A stretch of 64,000 nucleotides of DNA. It comes from Alteromonas sp. IB21 (GTDB lineage Bacteria > Pseudomonadota > Gammaproteobacteria > Enterobacterales > Alteromonadaceae). The notes beneath the pieces were generated by a model. It had not been told where the DNA came from. It saw nothing but the letters and a program-made list of their open reading frames with translations, and made no database searches. The stretch spans positions 1-64,000 of the forward strand of contig NZ_JAEFCD010000024.1 in the NCBI RefSeq assembly GCF_016405965.1, given 5' to 3'. Below are positions 7,952 to 42,148 of the stretch, piece by piece; the stretch's first letter is position 1; each line of letters opens with the position of its first letter. Position numbers and translations under genes: made by a program.

Positions 7952-9034
7952 ATGAATCACGTTCTTAGAAAGCTTTGGATAATGGCTTTTATCACATTAT
8001 TTACCCCGTACTCACCTTGCTTTTCGCTAGAGTTGATAGTGACTAATACAAAAGAGCTTAAAAATGCTGTTCATATTGCAAACAATGATAAAAGTGGAAA
8101 CGTAATAGAGATATTAGTGGATGACGGCGAATATAAAAATTCATCAAACATCATAATTTCACGAAATAACATCACCATTCGCTCTATTTCAAATAATCCA
8201 GCGCACGTTGTACTTAGCGGTTCAGGTATGAAGAAGAAAAGCCCCGTTGAGGTCATATTCGATATAAGTGCAAGCAATGTTACGCTTTCAGGTATTACTC
8301 TTAGAAACGTTTCCCATCATCTTATTCAAGTACGCGCAGAGAAAGACGTCGACTATTTTTCATTAGACAACTGCATCCTCGAGGACTCGTATCAGCAACT
8401 ACTCAAAGTGTCCGGAAAGGACAACGGTGAATATTCAGACTTTGGTGTAATCAAAAATAGTCGCTTTGAATACACCGCTGGTGTTGCACCAAACTATTAT
8501 GTTGGCGGCATAGATGCGCATAGGTCACGAGGTTGGGTAGTGTCCAACAATATATTTTTGAATATCGCAAGCCCTGCTGAAAAGGTTGCTGAGCATGCTA
8601 TTCATTTTTGGAAGTATTCATTTGATAATACTGTTGTCAGTAACATTATTATCAACTCGGACAGAGGGATAGGTTTTGGTTTAGGAAACAATAAAAACCA
8701 GTCAATGGGCGGGATCATAGCTTTTAATAAAATATCACATGATAACCCCAACCACATTTACGCAGATGTAGGTATTAGCTTAGAGAGCAGTCCACATACC
8801 ATTGTTAGCAACAATGAGATTTACCTAAATTCAAACTATCCGAATGCTATTGAATACCGCTTTCCTAATACGCAAGGTGTTATTATAAAAAATAATATTA
8901 CTAACAAATCAATTGTTGCCAGAGATGGTGCAGATGGGATAATACTCGCTAATAAATCTGCAGGTATCTTTGAGTACTATTGGAACTCCATATTTTTCTA
9001 CTTTAATCAAGCAATTCGCTTCATCAATAACTAA
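7952..9034 (+). CDS. Secreted right-handed parallel beta-helix protein
   Basis: The start at ATG 7952 gives 360 residues with an N-terminal signal sequence (hydrophobic stretch about residues 8-28). A longer TTG start at 7925 would only add residues before it. The rest consists of repeating N-N-x-I/F and S-N-N-x-I rungs (for example VVSNNIFLNIAS, TIVSNNEIYL, GVIIKNNITN) typical of pectate-lyase-like beta-helices. A GGIDAHRSRGW and AEHAIHFWKYS core may be the active face. Such proteins next to polysaccharide operons often are lyases, epimerases or hydrolases, but no family-specific catalytic set was identified. It is the only plus-strand gene inside this part of the locus and runs tail-to-tail with the exosortase gene, 18 bases apart. 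Confidence 0.75.
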   Translation: MNHVLRKLWIMAFITLFTPYSPCFSLELIVTNTKELKNAVHIANNDKSGNVIEILVDDGEYKNSSNIIISRNNITIRSISNNPAHVVLSGSGMKKKSPVEVIFDISASNVTLSGITLRNVSHHLIQVRAEKDVDYFSLDNCILEDSYQQLLKVSGKDNGEYSDFGVIKNSRFEYTAGVAPNYYVGGIDAHRSRGWVVSNNIFLNIASPAEKVAEHAIHFWKYSFDNTVVSNIIINSDRGIGFGLGNNKNQSMGGIIAFNKISHDNPNHIYADVGISLESSPHTIVSNNEIYLNSNYPNAIEYRFPNTQGVIIKNNITNKSIVARDGADGIILANKSAGIFEYYWNSIFFYFNQAIRFINN

Positions 9035-9052
9035 TCATTTTACTTTCTAAGT

Positions 9053-10528
9053 TTATAGGCGAGATAAAATAACAGAAAGACTGTCATTTATAGCTGAAAC
9101 ATCATGTCCATTTGCTGCAAGGATCCATAGTCTTCCACCTTTGGAACTTCCAAACAGCACATTTTTAACCTGATATATTTTGGCCTTGACCGCGCTGGTA
9201 AATAGCGCATTGTCGACTTCATAAAACCTTACGATACTGAGCTTTTCGCCACTTGACGATACAACATGATAGACAGAGAGGTGTAAACCGTTTGTAGCTA
9301 TACTAGTAATGTGACTGAGCGAAAAGCGTTCAGGGTCGAATAGCCTATGCAGGTCGCTTACTAATTCATTATGTTGTTCGCTAAACCAAGCATTGTAAAC
9401 TTTAACGTTACAACCTTGATATTTAAGAAAGCCAAATTCTTCTGCATCCGGGTCTACTACAATGGGTTGCCAATCCGTTCTTTGGCAATTGTTGTCCCAA
9501 TCATAACTCTGAGTAGAGAGACGTATGTCAGAATGAGAATTGCTAATATTTGAAATATTTACGAGCCATGCAAAAAAGCCTGCAAAAATAACGATTGAAC
9601 TGATAACGACAGGCATGCTCACCGAGGCTGTCGCATTTTGCGGCCCGACTTTACTAGGTTTATACGGTGATTGCCGCATAAATTCACCGATCCCCAGCAA
9701 ACACATAATTACGAAAGCAAAGAAAAACCAGCCATAGATTAGATGATCTGCGCCAGCAGCATGCTCCATGTCTGTCCAATATGCGATAAGAATAATGCCA
9801 TACACTCGAACAATATTCGCCAATACCGGAATTATTAATGATATAGCAACGAATATTGCTCTACGCTTTACTGACACTAAGTTTAAGTAAGCATACAAGC
9901 TACCTATGACAAAGCTCGCAATAAAAAAGCTGACGCCGGAACACGCTTCGGCGACTAGGAATCGACCTTGAGGTATTTCAATGTAAAGGCCGCTTCGAAA
10001 AAGAGGCACATCAGTTAAATGTAATAGGGCAACCGAACCATCAGCAGCTATTTTTTGAAGATAAGGAATAAGCTGTTCACCCACTGGAATACTAAAAAGC
10101 ATAAACACCAATGGAAACAGAATTATTTTTGCAGCTTGAGTGCCCACCATTAACCAAATGAGTGCGGGTAATAGCGTGAAAGTAGCGGTATGCATAAACA
10201 ATTGAATATCACCTGCAATACCAACCACATATAAAAGCAACGCGGGTATAATAATAATAAAAGCCAATGGCGTTGTTTTGATAGGCTTAGCAAACAGCAT
10301 ATAGCGCTTTAGGTAAATTAGGTAGATAGCACCTGGGACGATAAAGAATCCGTGATTAAATATCTCGTTTCCGTACCATATTTGAACAACAGTGGTGAGC
10401 CCCTGCCAACAAAAGGCACCCCATAAGCAAAGCAATAAAAAGCCCGAAGTGAAGAACGTTTTATTTTTACCAAATGAAAAACTTGTAAAACCGCTATCCT
10501 TATCGCTTTGTGTATCAATGTTATCCAT
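9053..10528 (-). CDS. xrtA: Exosortase A with fused EpsI domain
   Basis: The start at ATG 10528 has AGGGAA eight bases upstream; a start two codons earlier is too close to it. The 491-residue protein has about eight N-terminal membrane segments. These carry the exosortase triad: Cys196 in VAEACSGVSF, Arg241 in NIVRVYGI and His262 in AADHLIYGW. After a further TM at about 305-325, a periplasmic EpsI/DUF3485-like domain follows (YDWDNNCQRTDW, then NAWFSEQHNELV). Exosortases are transpeptidase-like enzymes that process proteins with a PEP-CTERM sorting signal, and XrtA genes sit in exopolysaccharide loci like this one. No PEP-CTERM protein is encoded within the window, so its substrates must be elsewhere. 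Confidence 0.92.
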   Translation of the reverse strand: MDNIDTQSDKDSGFTSFSFGKNKTFFTSGFLLLCLWGAFCWQGLTTVVQIWYGNEIFNHGFFIVPGAIYLIYLKRYMLFAKPIKTTPLAFIIIIPALLLYVVGIAGDIQLFMHTATFTLLPALIWLMVGTQAAKIILFPLVFMLFSIPVGEQLIPYLQKIAADGSVALLHLTDVPLFRSGLYIEIPQGRFLVAEACSGVSFFIASFVIGSLYAYLNLVSVKRRAIFVAISLIIPVLANIVRVYGIILIAYWTDMEHAAGADHLIYGWFFFAFVIMCLLGIGEFMRQSPYKPSKVGPQNATASVSMPVVISSIVIFAGFFAWLVNISNISNSHSDIRLSTQSYDWDNNCQRTDWQPIVVDPDAEEFGFLKYQGCNVKVYNAWFSEQHNELVSDLHRLFDPERFSLSHITSIATNGLHLSVYHVVSSSGEKLSIVRFYEVDNALFTSAVKAKIYQVKNVLFGSSKGGRLWILAANGHDVSAINDSLSVILSRL

Positions 10529-39135: not shown

Positions 39136-39765
39136 TTATCGTGTCCCGAAGATTTTATCACCGGCGTCGCCAAGTCCCGGCAATATGTAGCCCTTTTCAT
39201 TTAATCGTTCATCGATAGCAGCGGTAAAAATATCAACATCAGGGTGTGCTTCAACAACAGCCTTAATACCCTCGGGAGCCGCAACAAGAAAAAGCCCCAT
39301 GATTTTGGTACAGCCTTTTTCCTTTAGTAGGTCAATGGTTGCAATGAGGGTTCCGCCAGTGGCAAGCATGGGATCAACAATAAGCGCAGTGCGCTCATCA
39401 ATGTTTTTTACTACCTTGTCAAAATATGCCACAGGTTGCAGTGTTTCCTCGTCACGATAAAGGCCTACTACACTGATCTTGGCGTTCGGTATAAGCTTGA
39501 GTACCCCTTCAAGCATTCCAAGACCAGCGCGAAGAATTGGCACAACCGTTATTTTCTTTCCTTTAATCTGCCTCACTTCGACGTCGTCGCCGGACCAACT
39601 CTTTATCGTCGCTCTCTCGGTAGGTAACGTTCGTGTCGCTTCATAGGTCAGCAGGTTCCCTACTTCTGAAGCTAATTCGCGAAAATCTTTGCTGCTAATT
39701 TTAGCGTATCGCATAAGCCCGATTTTATGGGCAATAAGCGGATGGGTAATTTCGTGAACGGCCAT
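39136..39765 (-). CDS. upp: Uracil phosphoribosyltransferase
   Basis: This 209-residue protein has the usual size and motifs: [12 protein letters not shown] at the start, [13 protein letters not shown], the PRPP-binding [12 protein letters not shown], and a C-terminal [16 protein letters not shown] for uracil binding. It converts uracil and PRPP into UMP. AAGGAG precedes the ATG. No uracil permease gene is adjacent. Confidence 0.97.
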
Positions 39766-39976: not shown

Positions 39977-40000
39977 CGCTACCCTACTCGTAGGGTAGCG
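39977..40000 (-). terminator. Perfect hairpin overlapping the stop codon of the XRE gene
   Basis: CGCTACCCTA (39977-39986) and TAGGGTAGCG (39991-40000) form a perfect 10-bp stem with a CTCG loop. The stem includes the last six codons and the TAG stop (39979-39981) of the XRE gene. No strong T run follows on the minus strand, so it may terminate poorly or act on mRNA stability. Confidence 0.5.
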
Positions 40001-40200
40001 CCATCTGGCATCGTCACTTCAATCTTCATAGTGCCGCCAACCGCTGCTAAATAAGCCGCAGCCCGCTGCAATGACACATCTTGAATTCTCTTCGATTCTA
40101 ATTTGCTTACGCCCGAAGCGGTCACTGATAACGCCATTGCTACCACTTCTTGTTTAACTCTATGTTGCTTTCTAATGTCACCTAATGTGATTTCTTTCAT
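39979..40200 (-). CDS. Small XRE/HipB-like helix-turn-helix regulator
   Basis: This 73-residue protein is essentially one helix-turn-helix domain (LGDIRKQHRVKQEVVAMALSV, then GVSKLESKRIQD) followed by LQRAAAYLAAVGG and a short basic-acidic tail. That is the layout of HipB-like or antitoxin-type regulators. No toxin partner is adjacent. The gene lies directly behind an attenuator-like leader with an aromatic-rich peptide, and its own ribosome-binding site is weak. Direct targets are unknown. Confidence 0.75.
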   Translation of the reverse strand: MKEITLGDIRKQHRVKQEVVAMALSVTASGVSKLESKRIQDVSLQRAAAYLAAVGGTMKIEVTMPDGATLRVG

Positions 40201-40231
40201 TGTTTTTTACCGAGAATTACGGGCATTAAAA

Positions 40232-40374
40232 AAGCCCAGATGGTGATACCTTCTGGGCTTTTGCAAAACGTTCTACCTGCAGTGCCCAGAAGCCAATACT
40301 TGCCCCTGAACACCGACGGTCAGGTGCAATCAGTAATTAAAATTGTAAAAATAACCAGTTGAAACGTTTTGCAT
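40232..40374 (-). promoter_or_regulatory. Ribosome-mediated transcription attenuator in the XRE gene leader
   Basis: Read on the minus strand, CTTCTGGGC (40284-40292) can pair perfectly over nine bases with GCCCAGAAG (40250-40258), an antiterminator. The latter can instead pair with TCTGGGC (40234-40240) to form a 9-bp terminator stem (arms 40232-40240 and 40252-40260) followed by six U. A further perfect 10-bp pairing links GCAAAACGTT in the leader-peptide start (40363-40372) with AACGTTTTGC (40263-40272). This is the classical layout of amino-acid attenuators. The pairing is read by eye and no folding was computed. Confidence 0.7.
40330..40374 (-). CDS. Aromatic-rich leader peptide of the attenuator
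   Basis: A 15-codon frame starting at ATG 40374 encodes MQNVSTGYFYNFNY. Three Tyr and two Phe fall in the last seven residues, preceding the competing hairpins by the usual distance. GAGA lies eight bases upstream. Control codons for Tyr/Phe would let stalled ribosomes favour the antiterminator when charged aromatic tRNAs are scarce. No known gene product has this sequence to my knowledge. Confidence 0.6.
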   Translation of the reverse strand: MQNVSTGYFYNFNY

Positions 40375-40505
40375 GATAATTCTCTTTTCACAATGTGCTT
40401 GTACAAACGACCCTGTGCCGCGACTGAGCAAAATGTTGAGGCTTCGGTGCGTTTCAAAAATACAGCAGCGGCCTTCTGTCACTTATCCTTAACCATACCA
40501 TGTCG

Positions 40506-40586
40506 TTAAGCAATAGCAACGACTTTCCAAACAGGAAAGTGTTTGTGCGCTTCGATCACGCCTTTCATATTAGTTTTAAAAAACAT
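40506..40586 (-). CDS. Very short ORF abutting the cupin gene
   Basis: ATG at 40586 follows the cupin TAG stop with no gap. The frame encodes 26 residues ending FPVWKVVAIA. It could be translated by re-initiation but has no recognisable family and no independent ribosome-binding site. It may be a chance frame. Confidence 0.2.
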   Translation of the reverse strand: MFFKTNMKGVIEAHKHFPVWKVVAIA

Positions 40587-41117
40587 CTACAGAACACCTA
40601 CAAAGTCCCCTTCTTTGGCACGCTTTAGCGCATCCAAAAATTGTGGAACTAAATGACTTCCTTCCTCGGGCGACCAGGGTGCAAACCCCTTATCATCTGT
40701 AGCCTCATAGGGGCCCTGTTTTACTTCCATAAAAACAACCGGGCTATTGCAAACTGTTGCATGCCAGACATTTGGAGGTATTTCCACACCGCTAGTCTCC
40801 CCGCCTGCTTTTAAGGTAGTTCTTTCCACCAGTTGCCCTTCCTTCTCGTTATCGAAAAAGAGAATATCTAACTCACCTTCAAGTACCATAAAAAACTCCC
40901 ACTTATGAGACTGTACATGCCGATGAGGACGTACATAAGAGTCTGGCATCATGGCAATAAAAAGGCGCTGAACGACATCTTGATATGTTTTGTGAACATT
41001 AAAGTGGGAGCGGCGGCGTGCGCTAGTCTCAGCTTGAGATTTAAGCGTTTCAAACAGTGTTTTATCAAAGCGGGTTGCATTAGCCTGGTGTACGTTGCTC
41101 TGTTTTTTATTGCTCAT
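40587..41117 (-). CDS. WbuC-family cupin metalloprotein
   Basis: The start at ATG 41117 (MSNKKQSNVHQ) gives 176 residues. The longer frame to 41267 would run through a terminator at 41167-41195 and is rejected. The cupin core has metal-binding residues in RPHRHVQSHKWEFFMVLEGEL and IPPNVWHATV. It also has the conserved RRRSHFNVH start and FAPWSPEEG near the C-terminus, the WbuC pattern. WbuC genes often sit in O-antigen clusters but the reaction is not established. Here it is separated from the EPS locus. Confidence 0.85.
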   Translation of the reverse strand: MSNKKQSNVHQANATRFDKTLFETLKSQAETSARRRSHFNVHKTYQDVVQRLFIAMMPDSYVRPHRHVQSHKWEFFMVLEGELDILFFDNEKEGQLVERTTLKAGGETSGVEIPPNVWHATVCNSPVVFMEVKQGPYEATDDKGFAPWSPEEGSHLVPQFLDALKRAKEGDFVGVL

Positions 41118-41166
41118 GTTTATATCTGACAATATCTTCCCCTTTAACTGCTTGAAAAAACGAAAA

Positions 41167-41195
41167 GTGTTTGCGCAAAACAACTGCGCAAACAC
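41167..41195 (-). terminator. Terminator between the periplasmic duplicated protein and the cupin gene
   Basis: GTGTTTGCGC (41167-41176) and GCGCAAACAC (41186-41195) form a perfect 10-bp stem with a nine-base loop. On the minus strand it is followed by CTTTTCGTTTTTT. This ends the oxidase operon and makes the cupin gene a separate unit. Confidence 0.85.
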
Positions 41196-41242
41196 CAAAA
41201 AGCTATCGCTTACGTTACTTTTGCAAAAAAAAAGTTGCAAGC

Positions 41243-42148
41243 TTAAAGGCGAGCTATCTCTACCCATCCTCCCTGAATAAACTTCACTTTTTTATCTTGG
41301 TGACAGAAGACAGGAATTTTCCATTTTTCTTGTTCATCGTTATCTAAACGACTGTCTGGCCATGTATATGCCGCTTGTGTAGAAAGCTTCACCCATTTAA
41401 CTTCAGAATCCACGGGCGAACGACCAAGTTGTTTCCAGCCTTCACTTTGCGTGTTTGCCTCTACGCCGTGTGGACTAAATCTGAACATGGGCTCGTCGTA
41501 TTCATCAAGTACTACCATGTGATGGTCGCCCTGATAACTTACCCTTATCGCTCGTTCAGGACCAGGAATTACCATAGCTGTAAGGTCTGTAATAGGCGCC
41601 GCTTTATTGTCTACCGTAACTAACGTGCGCTTGCTCGGTGGCGCCAGCGATTTGAAATACCCAGAAAGCTCTTGGCGCTTGCCGTTTACCGCTAGCGCAA
41701 TACTCCAGCGTTCTGCGTGTTCATCAGTTTTTTCTAACCGTTTATCATACCAACCGTAGTAGTTCCGCTCGCTAACTTGGGTCCATTTTGACTCGAGCTT
41801 TTGATCTGTTACCCACTCTGGCAAAGGTCTGGGCCCTGCGGTTTGTACTTTAAACCACATAGGGTGGTCCCAATTGGCATAAACACCACTTTTTGTGATG
41901 CGAATGAAAGCCTCATTGTCATCGCCCAGCACTTCTAATTTTCCCTCGCCGTCATATTGCACAAGTATTTCGTTTCCCAAGGGCGAACTTTGTATTTGGG
42001 ACAAAATAACGGCTTCGCTTTTACCCCGCTCATCTATAACAGGGAGCCACTCTCCGGCGACAGCTGACGCCCCATGCGCGTAAACGTTTGAGGATATAAA
42101 AGAGCATGCTAGGAAAAATGCTAACACGGTAGTAAATGTCTTAATCAT
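41243..42148 (-). CDS. Periplasmic protein with internal duplication, partner of the copper oxidase
   Basis: This 301-residue protein has a signal peptide (TVLAFFLACSFISSNVYA) and two similar halves. VLGDDNEAFIRITKSGVYAN in the first matches VLDEYDEPMFRFSPHGVEAN in the second. WTQVSERNYYGWYDKRL and ERWSIALAVNG match WVKLSTQAAYTWPDSRL and EKWKIPVFCHQ. Each half has conserved Trp and Arg. I do not recognise a named family. It starts 11 bases after the copper-oxidase gene, so the two form an operon. A role in copper delivery, maturation or substrate presentation is only inferred. Confidence 0.75.
   Translation of the reverse strand: MIKTFTTVLAFFLACSFISSNVYAHGASAVAGEWLPVIDERGKSEAVILSQIQSSPLGNEILVQYDGEGKLEVLGDDNEAFIRITKSGVYANWDHPMWFKVQTAGPRPLPEWVTDQKLESKWTQVSERNYYGWYDKRLEKTDEHAERWSIALAVNGKRQELSGYFKSLAPPSKRTLVTVDNKAAPITDLTAMVIPGPERAIRVSYQGDHHMVVLDEYDEPMFRFSPHGVEANTQSEGWKQLGRSPVDSEVKWVKLSTQAAYTWPDSRLDNDEQEKWKIPVFCHQDKKVKFIQGGWVEIARL

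Follow-up and report, generated by a model that had tools for sequence, protein, structure and literature searches.

What is a complete transcription attenuator doing in front of a gene for a small DNA-binding protein? Attenuators are textbook devices for amino-acid biosynthesis. In the window, that is, the whole 64,000-nt stretch of Alteromonas sp. IB21 DNA analysed here, the first-pass annotation had claimed a 14-residue leader peptide followed by two mutually exclusive pairings of GCCCAGAAG, one with an upstream CTTCTGGGC and one with a downstream TCTGGGC followed by six U, all of it before a 73-residue XRE gene. It had proposed that the XRE protein is made when charged tRNA-Tyr or tRNA-Phe is scarce, or that the device is the relic of a displaced biosynthetic gene. 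Based on the analysis below, we consider it probable that the unit is a ribosome-mediated transcription attenuator, which responds to how much charged tRNA-Tyr is available and governs a HigA-like regulator that has no toxin and is autoregulated. The layout, its conservation, the covariation in the terminator and in a long-range helix (0:3.5), the strict co-occurrence of attenuator and XRE gene, and the cognate tRNAs in related units are established at the level of sequence.

Layout of the unit and its distribution in Alteromonas

The leader and both pairings of GCCCAGAAG are present on the minus strand, where the unit is bounded by a WbuC-type cupin gene and upp (all coordinates below refer to this strand of the window). 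The leader ORF MQNVSTGYFYNFNY runs from the ATG at 40374 to the TGA at 40330 (40330..40374), with an AAGAGAA stretch immediately 5' of the ATG. It carries the control codons Tyr8 and Tyr10, beside an also invariant Asn11, and no His codon. In the mechanical ORF list the leader frame is prolonged to a GTG (50 aa), so the leader is not plainly visible there. Region 1 (GCACCTGA, 40320..40327) follows the leader stop and would be hidden by a ribosome sitting at the stop codon. Region 2 (GTGTTCAGGGGC, 40302..40313), which includes TCAGGGGC within 40312-40302, can pair with region 1 or region 3, while region 3 (GCTTCTGGGCAC, 40282..40293) has region 2 as one possible partner and region 4 as the other, the latter pairing being the antiterminator and involving the stretch CTTCTGGGC (40292-40284) that is able to pair with GCCCAGAAG. 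Region 4 (GCCCAGAAG, 40250..40258) is either this antiterminator partner or the 5' arm of the terminator, whose 3' side is region 5 (TCTGGGC plus six T, 40228..40240, with the arm at 40240-40234 and the U-run at 40233-40228); the terminator spans 40258-40228 and was not listed by a simple terminator scan allowing loops of up to 8. In addition, arm 0 (GCAAAACGTT, 40363..40372) at the leader start and arm 3.5 (AACGTTTTGC, 40263..40272) form the long-range helix 0:3.5 of 10-11 bp, and region 6 (TGCCCG, 40220..40225) lies 3' of the U-run. The core pairings thus stand as they were first read, but region 1, the region 2 arms and helix 0:3.5 had been missed.

Like the his, trp, phe, thr and leu attenuators, the unit has a leader ORF with control codons, and pairings that exclude one another and yield either a terminator or an antiterminator. 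Unlike the attenuators of amino-acid operons, it controls a small DNA-binding protein, has Tyr codons and contains the extra helix 0:3.5. The Rfam model His_leader (RF00514) scores 28.2 bits on the window, below its gathering threshold of 49, and its best place in the same genome, with five consecutive His codons, reaches 64 bits. Other Rfam matches (sau-63, mir-186, rliB, rli43) are far under threshold and were taken as chance.

A DNA search matched the region in 21 of the 60 genomes it covered, that of the window included, every one within the genus. The XRE protein is present in 31 of the 59 genomes of the genus, and strong matches of the RNA model R1 (E 3.4e-23 or better, in a genus-wide search run with stricter filters) occur in the same 31, whereas in the remaining 28 no XRE protein was matched and the RNA model gave a weak match at best. 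Among the 31 XRE-bearing genomes, the attenuator layout was recognised in every one (30 loci and A. halophila), as was a short translated-looking ORF 5' of an intrinsic terminator. Since attenuator and XRE gene occur in the same 31 of 59 genomes, the idea of a device left behind by a displaced biosynthetic gene is not supported and was rejected. The upp gene is found in all 28 XRE-less genomes, with other genes 5' of it, and on the upp gene tree (48 rows, 20 with XRE and 28 without; the XRE-bearing locus L112 was left out) the presence of XRE needs two changes. A second collection yielded 21 loci, namely 19 from Alteromonas, one from an Alteromonadaceae MAG and one distant protein from Celeribacter. 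Across the order, R1 matched at E 1 or better in 62 of 295 genomes. Of the places outside the genus, 16 were inspected by eye and dismissed as lone terminators, except two leaders in other genera with runs of six His, each followed by an ORF that we take to be HisG-like.

Leader peptide, conserved pairings and predicted switch

The leader peptide varies as a coding sequence would, around a fixed core. In the 24 distinct Alteromonas leaders, codon 10 is always Tyr (TAT in 15, TAC in 9) and codon 11 always AAT (Asn), and codon 8 is Tyr in 23, while codon 9 varies among F, I and N, codon 12 among F, Y and I, and codon 14 drifts (Y/Q/H/N/D). The leader start lies 47 nt from region 1 in 30 of 30 loci; in the 31st, from A. 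halophila, it lies two codons further 5' and the core reads QYFYNFTY. Of the two amino acids originally proposed, then, Tyr is the better candidate in Alteromonas, because Phe is not fixed there, and the tRNA sensed in the window is most likely tRNA-Tyr.

The alignment with Alteromonas relatives also shows that the stems are conserved. In the terminating state, 97.8-98.0% of the alignment cells pair, and double-sided changes are found at 6 pairs, 2 in helix 0:3.5 and 4 in the terminator, a covariation that none of 500 shuffles equalled; the helix is retained in A. halophila through two compensatory double changes. When the partners are slid by 1-3 columns, pairing falls to 32-51%, a control that is biased towards the terminating structure, since this was modelled on the window sequence, itself in the alignment. 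The antiterminating pairs are kept in 97.7-97.9% of cells, and their arms (1:2 and 3:4) are nearly invariant and show no covariation. Consequently, covariation neither supports nor contradicts them. Regions 1-3, which lie outside the terminator, are invariant. The 154-nt minus-strand RNA folds at -59.2 kcal/mol (z -6.18), and none of 200 shuffles is as good, so the fold exceeds chance. As for region 6, all 31 Alteromonas loci have TGCCC at most 3 nt from the U-run, as do six other leaders; it may pair with region 5 once this is freed, and could possibly act as a second lock on translation. In the members L195, L203 and L215 described below, TGCCC could pair with a GGGC near the XRE start, and with region 5 where this is free.

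The switch was predicted by mask folding, in which the leader RNA was ended just past region 4 and the bases beneath the ribosome were masked. With the ribosome at codons 3-10, all 25 leaders form the antiterminator, and 24 of 25 do so at codons 1-2. The number drops to 11 at codon 11, 10 at codon 12, 3 at codon 13 and 1 at codon 14, and to none with the ribosome at the stop codon; 7 of 25 form it with no ribosome. The predicted switch point hence falls between codons 10 and 13, with the control codons before it: the invariant Tyr codons fall to its inducing side and codon 14, which drifts, to the opposite one. Footprint size and mask edge hardly alter the outcome (24 leaders), and after the spacer of the window leader was shuffled the switch appeared in 0 of 300 cases. 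Masking arm 3.5 raises the antiterminator without ribosome from 7 to 21 of 24 leaders, which suggests that helix 0:3.5 makes termination the default. Three his leaders, folded in the same way, served as positive control: a clean switch, at the last His codons, was seen in one of them, and no such switch in the other two under the regions chosen. Attenuators decide while the RNA is being made. Equilibrium folding of the full-length RNA, which, wherever the ribosome is placed, prefers the terminator in 22-24 of 24 leaders, was dropped as uninformative about the switch.

These predictions would fit the following course of events. Transcription would begin at the conserved promoter, and a ribosome would start on the leader. 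With Tyr-tRNA plentiful, the ribosome would reach the stop codon and cover region 1, so that region 2 pairs with region 3 and region 4 with region 5; the terminator would form and no XRE mRNA would be made. With Tyr-tRNA scarce, it would wait at codon 8 or codon 10, pairings 1:2 and 3:4 would form, and the polymerase would read through into XRE and perhaps on into upp. In the absence of a ribosome, arm 0 is predicted to pair with arm 3.5, favouring the terminator. The XRE protein, finally, would probably bind the palindrome at its own promoter. The earlier proposal of induction on scarce Tyr or Phe tRNA is thereby supported in its Tyr half, by the conservation of Tyr8 and Tyr10 and the predicted stall-dependent switch.

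The regulator, its promoter and upp

The XRE gene (39979..40200) encodes a 73-aa HigA-like orphan whose Pfam HTH matches stay below the curated cut-offs. Its sequence matches the HigA3 antitoxin 6lty at E 0.0013, and with its AlphaFold2 model (pLDDT 91) the best two Foldseek matches are HigA3 (E 3.6e-5) and HigA2 (1.7e-4); the best PDB matches are 6ltz, 6lty and 7ewc. The protein thus shares fold and sequence with the type II antitoxins HigA2 and HigA3, from which it differs in lacking about 30 N-terminal residues, the Alteromonas XRE being shorter by that much than its HigA-like homologues, and in having no toxin seen beside it. We take it to be related to HigA antitoxins but shortened. At 18 of 23 homologous loci from the order, a HigB-like ORF was seen upstream by eye, the HigA-like ORFs there having about 100 residues; of the remaining five, L028 corresponds to the orphan locus L205. 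In the window, a Pfam scan of the neighbours (a cupin, a UPRTase, a LacI and one without match) revealed no toxin, and no toxin-like ORF was noted beside 20 Alteromonas loci, whose ORFs were compared with the window proteins only.

The predicted promoter (40487..40520) consists of a -35 box TTGCTA, a 16-nt spacer and a -10 box TATGGT, and was not returned by a strict consensus promoter scan. Just 5' of the -35 box lies the palindrome ACTTTCC-N5-GGAAAGT (40522..40540), a candidate operator. Among 21 Alteromonas sequences (the window and 20 loci), GGAAAGT is found 5' of the leader in 19, TTTCC-N5-GGAAA in 14 and the TATGGT -10 in 18, with one-base variants of the latter in L112 and L117 and none seen in L108. 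The palindrome occurs in exact form once in its genome; 13 further places carry 2 mismatches, against 18 places for a reversed control pattern. Since it is no commoner than this control, no XRE regulon was found. The palindrome would probably serve autoregulation. Further 5', a WbuC-family cupin metalloprotein gene (window 40587-41267, minus strand; NCBIfam, 159.6 bits) lies just before the unit.

Called lone by the annotation, the XRE gene is not quite so, as upp, which had gone unmentioned, comes after it. In the window, upp (uracil phosphoribosyltransferase, 39136..39765) is the next gene on the strand, 213 nt after XRE. In the 20 neighbourhoods, the attenuator is followed by XRE, and XRE in turn, along its strand, by upp, with one exception, where another ORF, presumably methyltransferase-like, comes before upp. 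At all 20 loci read, upp thus lies 3' of XRE in the same orientation, although 4 of them have other genes in between. The gap measures 57-75 nt in nine loci and 30-37 nt in two (as read from the sequence); five loci have 147-206 nt, and four, where genes intervene, 1.6-2.6 kb. At L105, L109, L112 and L122, XRE and upp are separated by an inserted opposite-strand gene of about 430 aa. It should also be noted that a strong hairpin without a clear U-run lies at the end of the XRE gene (window 40000-39977, minus strand), a possible weak terminator before upp.

Relatives with other leaders and their tRNA genes

Could the same device exist with other control codons? Beyond the genus-wide form, six further members with unrelated leaders were found, one on an A. 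mediterranea plasmid and five at loci in four other genera. The plasmid pAMCP48-600 (L195, 2826-3234) carries an orphan XRE gene whose product is 40% identical, with a terminator and a leader of its own, MNTQRCWRYFYMY, which does not match R1 at E 0.5. In mask folding, the probability of its antiterminator is 0.91 at codon 11, 0.50 at codon 12 and 0.00 at codon 13, so the switch falls just after the Tyr-Phe-Tyr codons of the leader; its RNA is not better folded than shuffles (z -0.76). On this 600-kb plasmid a terminator-like hairpin stands directly 3' of the XRE gene.

A profile search of 395 Alteromonadaceae genomes added the five orphan XREs of other genera (70-74 aa), each with a terminator and a leader: MMNCFRFTHFFSGS, MFNFVSLLSLAPTPSFSLPT, MKTFRITHYWYLHLN, MNFSRIYSWHNFST and MNFSRIYFWYHILT. 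The 20-aa leader of L203 is our choice among several short frames. The sequence 5' of these units contains TTTCC-N5-GGAAA in four and TGTCC-N5-GGACA in one. A helix like 0:3.5, differing in its letters, is significant in 6 of the 8 sequences tested (the window and A. halophila included) and absent from the plasmid member and the Phe-rich member. Under mask folding, L202 and L215 gave no clean switch, and that of the other three is late or shallow. The family search also listed nine further loci (L206-L214): seven HigA-like ORFs read there have 100-133 aa, and a toxin-like ORF was seen upstream by eye in 6 of the 9. For L216-L220, from the same search, the motif filter gave nothing, and they lie outside the present reading. 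Outside the family, among the matches listed from 394 genomes of the order and 369 of the class, with no more than 30 loci per search, 34 ORFs were read (from a sample of 44 loci, 10 being too short or unread; 2 with stops were left out) and no such orphan was found; 22 have a HigB/RelE-like ORF upstream by a loose motif, and the other 12 are 91-124 aa long. A search of phages and viral contigs yielded no relative, and one of plasmids for the L205 protein none either.

At all five loci of the other genera (L271-L275, from genomes G391, G379 twice, G392 and G060), tRNA or tRNA-like genes begin about 3-70 nt past the XRE stop on the same strand. The Phe-rich leader has a tRNA-Phe behind its XRE gene, and tRNA-Ser(GCT) and tRNA-Pro(TGG) go with a leader that contains AGT twice and CCN three times. 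The HYWY leader (L273) is accompanied by a tRNA-like gene with a Tyr anticodon and by tRNA-Trp, the IYSW leader (L274) by a Trp-like gene and tRNA-CAT, and the IYFWY leader (L275) by tRNA-Tyr, a Trp-like gene and tRNA-CAT. The excess of cognate codons over background gives a combined p of 2e-4 for the called tRNAs at four loci, and of 1.8e-5 with the tRNA-like genes included at five loci; L274 has a single cognate codon. When the tRNA sets are permuted among the leaders, the observed match is reached in 2 of 24 cases (strict) and 2 of 120, because three of the leaders are alike.

Several of the tRNA genes concerned are atypical. Where Rfam accepts them, their scores are 47-70 bits; it does not accept the Trp-like genes. 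In ARAGORN, the tRNA-Trp of L273 needs -ps95, and the Trp-like genes of L274 and L275 need -ps85 and an anticodon read by eye, settings that also yield other, probably false calls. Three identities were assigned by eye, that of the Tyr-like gene of L273 from its anticodon loop and those of the Trp-like genes in L274 and L275; these three hand-read stretches take branched, cloverleaf-like folds that are not better than shuffles (z -0.8 to -1.5). Near the 20 Alteromonas loci (9 and 11, some from the same genomes), default ARAGORN found no tRNA gene, and the tRNA link accordingly rests on the other genera. At -ps75, the 20 loci and the window gave scattered calls, taken as false, the recurrent ones being an opposite-strand 'tRNA-Gly' in four loci and an upstream 'tRNA-Leu' in two.

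The most economical reading is a family of attenuators, each of which senses that a given charged tRNA is in short supply and drives a HigA-like, autoregulated protein; spare cognate tRNAs accompany it in four other genera but not in Alteromonas. Since the members of other genera carry cognate tRNAs, the ancestral job was probably the response to a shortage of a particular tRNA. This suggests that the piece missing in Alteromonas may be a tRNA gene, not a biosynthetic gene. A wider proposal, which we put forward tentatively, is that of a dedicated tRNA-supply response in the Alteromonadaceae, where a leader peptide, enriched in the codons of one or two tRNA species, would gauge whether these are usable and, when they run short, switch on a HigA-derived, autoregulated regulator in one operon with spare, atypical copies of the same tRNAs, and where Alteromonas would have kept sensor and regulator without the tRNA gene. 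Here an unusable tRNA would be one that is uncharged or cut by an anticodon nuclease.

Could the leader sense something other than the charging of one tRNA? If it responded to general translation stress, for example from ribosome-targeting antibiotics, any stall before codon 11 would induce XRE, as the predicted antitermination for a ribosome anywhere at codons 3-10 would allow. There is a precedent in toiL, described in the available part of PMC12121999 as a uORF that senses ribosome stalling and controls the topAI-yjhQ toxin-antitoxin operon, although by that account toiL acts on translation and Rho and not through an intrinsic terminator, and the Alteromonas unit is without a toxin. We think such a role unlikely, because it would leave unexplained the Tyr10 that stays invariant through synonymous change, the Tyr-Phe-Tyr core of the unrelated plasmid leader, and the leader codons that match downstream tRNAs in other genera.

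The leader might instead sense tRNA modification, either queuosine (Tyr, Asn, His and Asp codons) or ms2i6A37 (U-first codons). Tyr and Asn are indeed invariant, codon 14 is Y, N, H or D in 19 of 24 leaders and Q in 5, and T-first codons make up 46 of 97 in the leaders of 7 lineages against a background of 19%. The available parts of two sources report that miaA mutants are impaired in attenuating the trp and phe operons (PMC9303304) and that Q34 alters the reading of Tyr codons in Vibrio (PMC11703503). The U-first excess outside F, Y and W is, however, 16 of 67, with a p of 1.2e-3 obtained post hoc, and the Ser/Pro leader with its tRNA-Ser and tRNA-Pro fits neither modification, on which ground modification sensing was demoted to an improbable rival.

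Little probability, in our judgment, likewise attaches to a merely strong terminator with an incidental short ORF and alternative pairing, in which case XRE would be expressed by constant readthrough or the short RNA would be an sRNA. The terminator is the most stable part, and covariation is confined to it and the long-range helix; against this stand regions 1-3, invariant outside the terminator, the coding-type variation of the leader, the loss of the switch in all 300 shuffled spacers, and the independent leaders of other genera. The leaders of pyrBI operons run into the terminator. An attenuation of this type serving upp, in which low UTP would make RNA polymerase pause in the U-rich leader, could account for that leader and for upp 3' of XRE in 20 of 20 loci, but it is highly improbable given that the window leader stops 71 nt before region 4, so that its ribosome cannot reach the terminator, that the Tyr codons vary between TAT and TAC among the leaders, that other genes separate XRE from upp in 4 of 20 loci, and that tRNA genes follow XRE in four other genera.

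For an attenuator reading charged tRNA, then, the mechanism is classical and the controlled genes are not. As the downstream gene neither makes nor charges Tyr, the Alteromonas unit is attenuator-like in its working but controls another kind of gene: its target encodes a small DNA-binding protein, and its counterparts in sister genera stand before tRNA genes matching their own leader codons. If this is true, the demand for a single tRNA species becomes a regulated variable, domesticated antitoxins are tied to tRNA supply, and the leader offers a simple in vivo reporter of tRNA depletion. We know of no leader-peptide attenuation of tRNA genes. Our literature search, which was directed at the attenuator-XRE element and did not extend to tRNA-gene attenuation, returned no description of this element among the papers listed; the available part of an Alteromonas RNA-seq study records, besides leaders for His, Trp and Thr, two unidentified RNAs (PMC4223743).

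One member is found beside a known tRNA-damage system. The rtcR gene, which adjoins L275 (767.8 bits, cutoff 650), encodes the activator of RNA repair operons that answer broken tRNAs, as described in the available part of PMC7790460. Both systems would thus respond to tRNA trouble, the sensor of RtcR being, according to the same part of that source, a CARF protein that binds broken tRNA, as against a leader peptide in the attenuator family. At L275 (10169-10383, plus strand, and 8316-9914, minus strand), rtcR lies just 5' of the unit, and a second cluster of tRNA-like genes diverges from rtcR. The genes of this second cluster are again atypical, with A-first anticodons (Ser aga, Thr agt).
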